Assembly (NCBI GenBank): GCA_030698695.1
Contig: JAUYMR010000017.1
Coordinates: 1-40,323, forward strand
Length of the DNA stretch: 40,323 bases
DNA from: a bacterium
GTDB lineage: Bacteria > Patescibacteriota > Minisyncoccia > UBA6257 > WO2-44-18
Direction: 5' to 3'
The notes under the pieces are model-generated. The model saw nothing but the letters and a program-made list of their open reading frames with translations, searched no databases and was not told where the DNA came from. Positions 1 through 643 of this stretch are shown here, one piece after another. Each line of letters opens with the position of its first letter. The first letter of the stretch is position 1. The position numbers and the translations under genes were made by a program.

Positions 1-84
1 AATTCGGGAATTTTTGGCGGGAATGCGTTTGTGTCGCGCCTTCGGCGCGACCCCATTTCGGCTTCCAATTGCGATTTCCAATTT

Positions 85-172
85 TGGCGGAGGGGGAGGG
101 ATTCGAACCCTCGATACCTTGCGGTATGCGTCGTTTCCAACGACGTGCACTAGGCCACTATGCGACCCCTCC
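85..172 (-). tRNA. tRNA-Ser (anticodon GGA), class II with long variable arm, CCA encoded
   Basis: Reverse complement GGAGGGGTCGCATAGTGGCCTAGTGCACGTCGTTGGAAACGACG...GAGGGTTCGAATCCCTCCCCCTCCGCCA. Acceptor GGAGGGG/CCCCTCC, anticodon loop TTGGAAA, variable-arm hairpin ATACC-GCAA-GGTAT. Confidence 0.95.
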
Positions 173-186
173 ATATTTCTTTTTAT

Positions 187-405
187 TTACTCGCGTTTAT
201 AACCCTTCTTGTATTCTAACTCGAGCTTGATAGATTCTTGTTCTGTGGCCATCATTATCTTCTCAAGAAGCATGAATGGTCTCCTAGATTTAGTTGATTG
301 AATCTTGCCGGAATTATGTTCTTTAAATCGTCGATCGAGATTATTAGTTCGACCAGTGTATAAATTTCCATCCTTCGTACTTCTAAGAATATAAACTAAA
401 AACAT
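187..405 (-). CDS. small GIY-YIG nuclease family protein
   Basis: 72 aa MFLVYILRSTKDGNLYTGRTNNLDRRFKEHNSGKIQSTKSRRP; VYIL...LYTGRTNNLDRRFKEHN matches the GIY-YIG core. Confidence 0.88.
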   Translation of the reverse strand: MFLVYILRSTKDGNLYTGRTNNLDRRFKEHNSGKIQSTKSRRPFMLLEKIMMATEQESIKLELEYKKGYKRE

Positions 406-411
406 AATGTA

Positions 412-461
412 TGCACTAGGCCCCTGCCTGCCGGCAGGCAGGACTATGCGACCCCTCCATA
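412..461 (-). repeat. partial duplicate of the tRNA-Ser 5' end, interrupted by a 20-bp palindrome
   Basis: 412-422 + 443-461 (tgcactaggcc/actatgcgacccctccata) is identical to 146-175 of the tRNA region; 423-442 is cctgcctgccggcaggcagg, a perfect palindrome. Confidence 0.93.
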
Positions 462-643
462 AGCTGAATATATAATAACTCAGGTATTATTGTTAATCAA
501 TTTAAAAATCATGATTTTGCAATTATCTCATTGATGTTGAATATAACGCCGCGCTATATATAAACTCCGAGTAGCCAGTAGCTTTTTAAAGAGTTAAACT
601 TGAGTAACTGTGATTAGAATGATTATAATCAATTTAATAACCA

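Follow-up and report, generated by a model that had tools for sequence, protein, structure and literature searches.

In a bacterium of the Patescibacteriota, a tRNA-Ser gene appears to have been split by a selfish element whose sole gene encodes a small GIY-YIG nuclease, with a complete copy of the tRNA kept alongside. The locus lies at one end of the window, by which we mean the whole stretch of 40,323 nucleotides that was analyzed (GenBank assembly GCA_030698695.1, contig JAUYMR010000017.1). Judging from sequence comparisons, it is probable that this arrangement represents a minimal homing-like element, whose GIY-YIG gene would have entered the tRNA-Ser gene in a manner that left a whole tRNA. 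This reading is based on the architecture of the locus, its recurrence, the existence of occupied and empty alleles within its clade, the linkage of nuclease lineages to tRNA isotypes, and purifying selection on the nuclease gene. Its close relatives appear to split tRNA-Ser genes in the same way in numerous other uncultured bacteria, and this suggests that a class of elements that invade tRNA genes has so far received little notice.

Organization of the tRNA-Ser locus

Read along the minus strand, the locus consists of a promoter-like site, a partial copy of the tRNA gene (remnant R), the GIY-YIG ORF, and an intact tRNA-Ser(GGA) gene (Table 1). An earlier note on this DNA had recognized both the intact tRNA gene and the nuclease ORF, and these assignments are borne out by ARAGORN and Rfam for the tRNA and by Pfam for the ORF. 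The coordinates that it gave for the duplicated tRNA 5′ end are also right, and the match is exact, covering 19 of 19 nt (443-461 = 157-175) plus the 11 nt at 412-422. However, the note overlooked the palindrome between these two pieces; the number of perfect 20-nt palindromes expected by chance in the window is 0. Because this insert separates them, the pieces repeat at different distances, one at the 266 nt that had been noted and the other at 286 nt. The gap between remnant R and the ORF start is 6 nt, as described previously.

Table 1. Parts of the tRNA-Ser locus, listed in minus-strand order (window coordinates).
Feature	Position	Strand	Remarks
Promoter-like site TTAACA-18-TATATT	467-496	-	5′ of the remnant; consensus matches only; presumed original tRNA promoter
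3 nt beyond the 5′ end of remnant R	459-461	-	Match the flank of the intact tRNA too
Remnant R, tRNA nt 1-16	443-458	-	Identical to the working tRNA
20-nt perfect palindrome CCTGCCTGCCGGCAGGCAGG	423-442		Between remnant nt 16 and 17
Remnant R, tRNA nt 17-27 (D-loop GG, D-stem 3′ strand)	412-422	-	
72-aa GIY-YIG nuclease ORF	187-405	-	Pfam GIY-YIG E=5.9e-16, residues 2-71 of 72
14-nt linker, ORF stop to tRNA nt 1	173-186	-	
Intact tRNA-Ser(GGA)	85-172	-	ARAGORN; Rfam tRNA agrees

The tRNA-Ser(GGA) has no other full match in the assembly, and it is therefore presumably this intact copy that functions. By consensus matching, no promoter-like site was found on the minus strand between the ORF and this tRNA. 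Among intron and other structured-RNA families, none besides tRNA reaches its cut-off within positions 1-700. A group I intron-encoded endonuclease was ruled out because no intron family is present in this region and the downstream tRNA is uninterrupted.

The nuclease ORF

The tyrosines of the GIY and YIG motifs and the conserved Arg, His, and Glu positions are invariant in 12 homologs of the window ORF. The gene is under purifying selection, with a pN/pS value of 0.02 for the closest pair and a median of 0.29. Its nearest solved relatives are of the UPF0213 and SLX1 types (1zg2, 1ywl, and SLX1 chains), not of the I-TevI type, and for this reason a structure-specific nuclease is plausible. To our knowledge, UPF0213 and SLX1 nucleases are not known as parasites of tRNA genes. 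A comparison of the ORF with PHROG gave no match at E<=1e-3, and viral contigs yielded only two weak relatives, such that no phage vehicle is shown. One 182-kb viral contig (L275) has a GIY-YIG ORF near a tRNA-Pro gene.

Related ORFs at tRNA-Ser genes

The window ORF belongs to a clade (SH-aLRT 99) of 17 members, comprising the window, its eleven best homologs from the host's order, and five from a named genome collection. Those eleven homologs (56-69% identity) are spread over five GTDB families, and all are located on the same strand 5′ of tRNA-Ser(GCT). Throughout the clade, a tRNA-Ser gene is directly 3′ of the ORF (17/17), with an anticodon that is mostly GCT but is GGA in the window and L200 and TGA in L194. 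The earlier note had proposed a search for related ORFs accompanied by tRNA fragments; indeed, all 17 members carry remnant R upstream, interrupted by a 20-nt hairpin at the nt 16/17 junction.

In 16 of 17 loci, the first 16 nt of the remnant (R1-16) agree fully with the local tRNA, and the 16-mer itself varies between genomes. Mismatches to the local tRNA are more frequent in R17-26 (12/170) than in R1-16 (1/272; p=7e-5). Remnants at tRNA-Ser genes are uninformative regarding a foreign replacement end because they are identical to the working tRNA. Tandem remnants are present in L152 and L157, which suggests repeated entry. In L183, where there is no ORF, the hairpin in the remnant occupies this same point but is a different one. 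These patterns fit either repeated entry or loss of the ORF.

Occupied and empty alleles

Three same-genus pairs provide both an occupied and an empty allele at tRNA-Ser(GCT). Loci L186 and L187 are 91.5% identical over 71 nt (the upstream flank and tRNA nt 1-16); synteny continues farther upstream, and the downstream match is weaker. The match between L176 and L177 is 84% over 195 nt and that between L184 and L180 is 74% over 68 nt with upstream synteny; both end at tRNA nt 16. In all three pairs, upstream homology passes through tRNA nt 16 and breaks exactly at the hairpin, which fits the D-arm entry point proposed in the earlier note. The flank with the presumed promoter stays with the remnant (L186 versus L187), and the intact tRNA stands after the ORF. 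The presence of the element is thus patchy, with congeners that lack it at the same site, and these alleles of clade members support the previous suggestion of a homing-type insertion into a tRNA gene. For the window's own locus, no syntenic empty allele was found among its relatives. That locus is unusable for allele comparison because the relatives' tRNA-Ser(GGA) genes have different neighbors and the contig ends 84 nt past the tRNA.

Association of small GIY-YIG genes with tRNA genes

The broader survey covers 197 distinct small GIY-YIG loci, which constitute a non-random sample fetched in part by using the window's clade as the query. Within this sample, 94 of 197 loci have a same-strand tRNA within 250 nt, and about half have no tRNA nearby. 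The density of tRNAs within 150 nt downstream of the ORF is 0.26 per 100 nt, versus a background of ~0.01. Relative to regions farther out, this proximity corresponds to an enrichment of ~15-fold upstream and ~25-fold downstream, or ~20-fold overall. Downstream tRNAs are almost always on the strand of the ORF (74/75, p=4e-21), and many different tRNAs are affected.

Remnants were evaluated by a paired comparison of matches to the 5′ and 3′ halves of the tRNA; a rank test was dropped because it was contaminated by tRNA targets common to several loci. In the class with a downstream tRNA (n=75), the 5′ half is the better match for upstream remnants (63:7, p=2e-11). Remnants in the class with an upstream tRNA (n=39) match the 3′ half better, albeit more weakly (23:12, p=0.011). 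The type of remnant therefore follows the side on which the tRNA is located, as would be expected from the association with tRNA fragments that the earlier note had put forward. Remnants that score above all shuffles are also found in loci named Bacteroidota, Cloacimonadota, Calditrichia, Ignavibacteriae, and Kryptonia. Furthermore, GIY-YIG lineages track tRNA isotype, with 50 isotype changes on the GIY-YIG tree, whereas none of 200 shuffles gave fewer than 65. Linkage to tRNAs is not universal in the broader GIY-YIG family, and therefore our claim is valid for certain lineages and not for all small GIY-YIG ORFs. A search for RNA genes near 20 tRNA-less loci gave only one tmRNA neighbor. In L018 (77-789), a GIY-YIG ORF lies ~150 nt upstream of a tmRNA gene on the same strand.

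All four small GIY-YIG ORFs in the window's assembly adjoin same-strand tRNA genes. One (L002) repeats the layout of the window at a tRNA-Tyr gene, where the remnant extends to the T loop, and another (L003) is located just 3′ of a tRNA-Gln gene. In L004 (1300-2100), an intact tRNA-Val gene beside a GIY-YIG ORF is nested in the D-loop-split remnants of two other tRNAs.

Two duplications of protein-gene ends were also encountered. In L054 (~1900-2370), the C-terminus of EF-G (fusA) is duplicated on either side of a GIY-YIG ORF, with differences that are mainly silent. In the window's own genome (L006; contig C8, reverse complement 468-620), a partial prfA start carries the same palindrome as the window remnant, read in frame as LPAGRQA. 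This partial copy is directly before a longer prfA frame with no GIY-YIG gene between, and the differences are again mostly silent.

Hairpins and palindromes

Most 5′ remnants are interrupted by hairpins. The exact 20-mer of the window palindrome is a dispersed REP-like sequence in the host's order, with 0-23 exact copies per genome (e.g., relatives G006 and G024), versus 0 for the reversed control. In the window's own genome, it is present at two sites only, namely the window remnant and the partial prfA start. The proposal that all hairpins reside in tRNA loops holds only in part when more loci are considered: of the 39 inserts that could be mapped, 28 are in loops, and most of these 28 belong to the tRNA-Ser clade. 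Several of the non-loop inserts map near the D stem, and some lineages have the hairpin in the T loop. There is perhaps a small chance that an SLX1-like mini-nuclease recognizes the folded D, anticodon, or T loop of tRNA genes, depending on the lineage, with the dispersed GC-rich palindromes as its products or substrates. If so, these genes would form a family of structure-guided elements able to split and rebuild tRNA genes as well as the ends of some protein genes.

Possible origins of the arrangement

A homing-like route to the observed layout can be envisioned as follows. A small GIY-YIG gene would enter a tRNA-Ser gene, and the original 5′ part of the tRNA (nt 1 to ~27) would be left at the old promoter as a remnant marked in its D loop by a hairpin. 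The intact tRNA after the nuclease gene would presumably share a transcript with that gene, starting at the old promoter, and be trimmed by RNase P. The element might then spread if the nuclease cleaves an empty tRNA gene at or near the D loop and the break is repaired by recombination from the occupied copy. The hairpin could be a scar of entry or a block to re-cutting. The replacement part might be carried by the element, or the local 5′ part might be duplicated at entry. The homing-like reading leaves the immunity of the occupied allele unaccounted for because the working tRNA still contains the presumed site.

It seems unlikely, although plausible on some of the evidence, that the arrangement is instead a by-product of local segmental duplication, wherein the tRNA gene is broken, whether by the nuclease or by a replication error, and microhomology repair duplicates the 5′ part in place, with no homing that involves a carried 5′ half. 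All but one of the 17 loci show a 16/16 match between R and the local tRNA, across many different 16-mers, which would fit a local duplication and a 5′ half carried by the element equally well. The L070 remnant is a near-perfect match for 65 nt, of which 9 nt are 5′ flank, and amplification driven by SegB via microhomology at the tRNA 5′ end is documented for this phage enzyme (PMC13096335). However, R17-26 is less conserved than R1-16, which is unexpected of a plain local copy. Most differences between the two fusA copies and between the two prfA copies are synonymous, a pattern that a foreign origin of one copy would predict, and the anticodon stems of the remnant and the working tRNA differ in L013 and L019. 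These same three observations may favor a replacement part carried by the element. Local duplication also does not readily explain why one ORF lineage is paired with one isotype across families.

Two other explanations fare less well. If the remnant and hairpin regulated tRNA or nuclease output, as a structured leader or decoy, and were kept for the benefit of the host, then the conserved remnant arms and hairpin position, the strong purifying selection on the ORF, and plausible co-transcription would all be understandable. We consider such a domesticated module quite improbable, given that the element is absent from congeners at the same site and that so many different tRNAs are affected. Even less credible is the chance placement of a degenerate neighboring tRNA beside an unrelated GIY-YIG ORF through decay of a tRNA cluster. 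Truncated tRNAs and nested tRNA debris do exist (L004), but coincidence is contradicted by the tRNA enrichment, the strand bias, the 5′/3′ dichotomy, the 17/17 clade members, and the empty alleles.

Relationship to known systems

Integrase-type elements that occupy tRNA 3′ ends keep the tRNA working after insertion, and the element described here is alike in this respect. However, the window unit is without an integrase, uses the 5′ side, and leaves a remnant that is interrupted rather than an exact copy of an attachment site. An integrase-type tRNA element was ruled out on the basis of the single GIY-YIG ORF on the 5′ side; the end of a serine-recombinase element found 3′ of the tRNA is separate (see below).

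SegB is a free-standing GIY-YIG homing endonuclease from the tRNA regions of T-even phages (PMC13096335; Brok-Volchanskaya 2008 cited there). According to the former study, SegB cleaves within tRNA genes, is able to amplify a segB-tRNA segment by way of the tRNA 5′ end, and has the motif RAWTSGAAC, and its authors regard the avoidance of self-damage as an open question. By our own reading, this motif would be the reverse complement of the tRNA T-loop consensus. Like SegB, the window ORF is a GIY-YIG protein encoded beside tRNA genes; it has the catalytic domain with its active-site residues, and its clade has occupied and empty alleles. In contrast, SegB is a phage protein and the window element resides in a bacterial chromosome. 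Moreover, the passages of the SegB study considered here describe no displaced, hairpin-marked remnant, and the study reports no isotype preference, whereas the lineages examined here track isotype. The window ORF is also little more than a catalytic domain. Because it is nearer to UPF0213 and SLX1 and has no PHROG match, we have not filed it as a SegB member.

Endonuclease ORFs in fungal mitochondria replace gene ends, as observed for Allomyces atp6 and for Glomus atp6, atp9, cox2, and nad3, and the Glomus atp9 ORF is of the GIY-YIG type (PMC3630166). Both there and here, an endonuclease ORF is located in a gene, a working end is supplied alongside, and the displaced native end sits beside the ORF as an unused remnant (PMC3630166). 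The fungal cases involve the 3′ ends of mitochondrial protein genes, whereas those described here mostly involve bacterial tRNA genes, mainly their 5′ ends, and have a hairpin in the remnant. On the best reading of these comparisons, the element would work most like SegB and the fungal gene-end-replacing ORFs, as a bacterial variant with displaced, hairpin-marked remnants. We found no description of this arrangement in bacteria in the literature searched, whose coverage leaves many subscription papers outside.

If the homing-like reading is correct, then many tiny ORFs annotated as "GIY-YIG nuclease family" in Patescibacteria and some other bacteria would not be housekeeping nucleases but parasites of essential tRNA genes, and pairs of empty and occupied alleles would already be available in public genomes. 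A tRNA gene would have been colonized without splicing or an integrase. Such elements would offer a tractable system for learning how a free-standing nuclease spares its host when the repaired gene keeps the target. The fusA and prfA end-duplications suggest that protein genes are affected too, which would be relevant to annotation and gene trees.

A second mobile element in the window

Directly 3′ of the tRNA-Ser gene, window positions 1-84 (minus strand) hold the ~83-nt end of a second mobile element, which is probably the reason that the contig ends at window position 1. The same ~83-nt end is found at the 3′ end of tRNA-Ser genes (GGA, GCT, or TGA) in L294, L296-L300, and L302. In L297, it adjoins a 502-aa ORF for a large serine recombinase, with an inverted second end 1.6 kb away.
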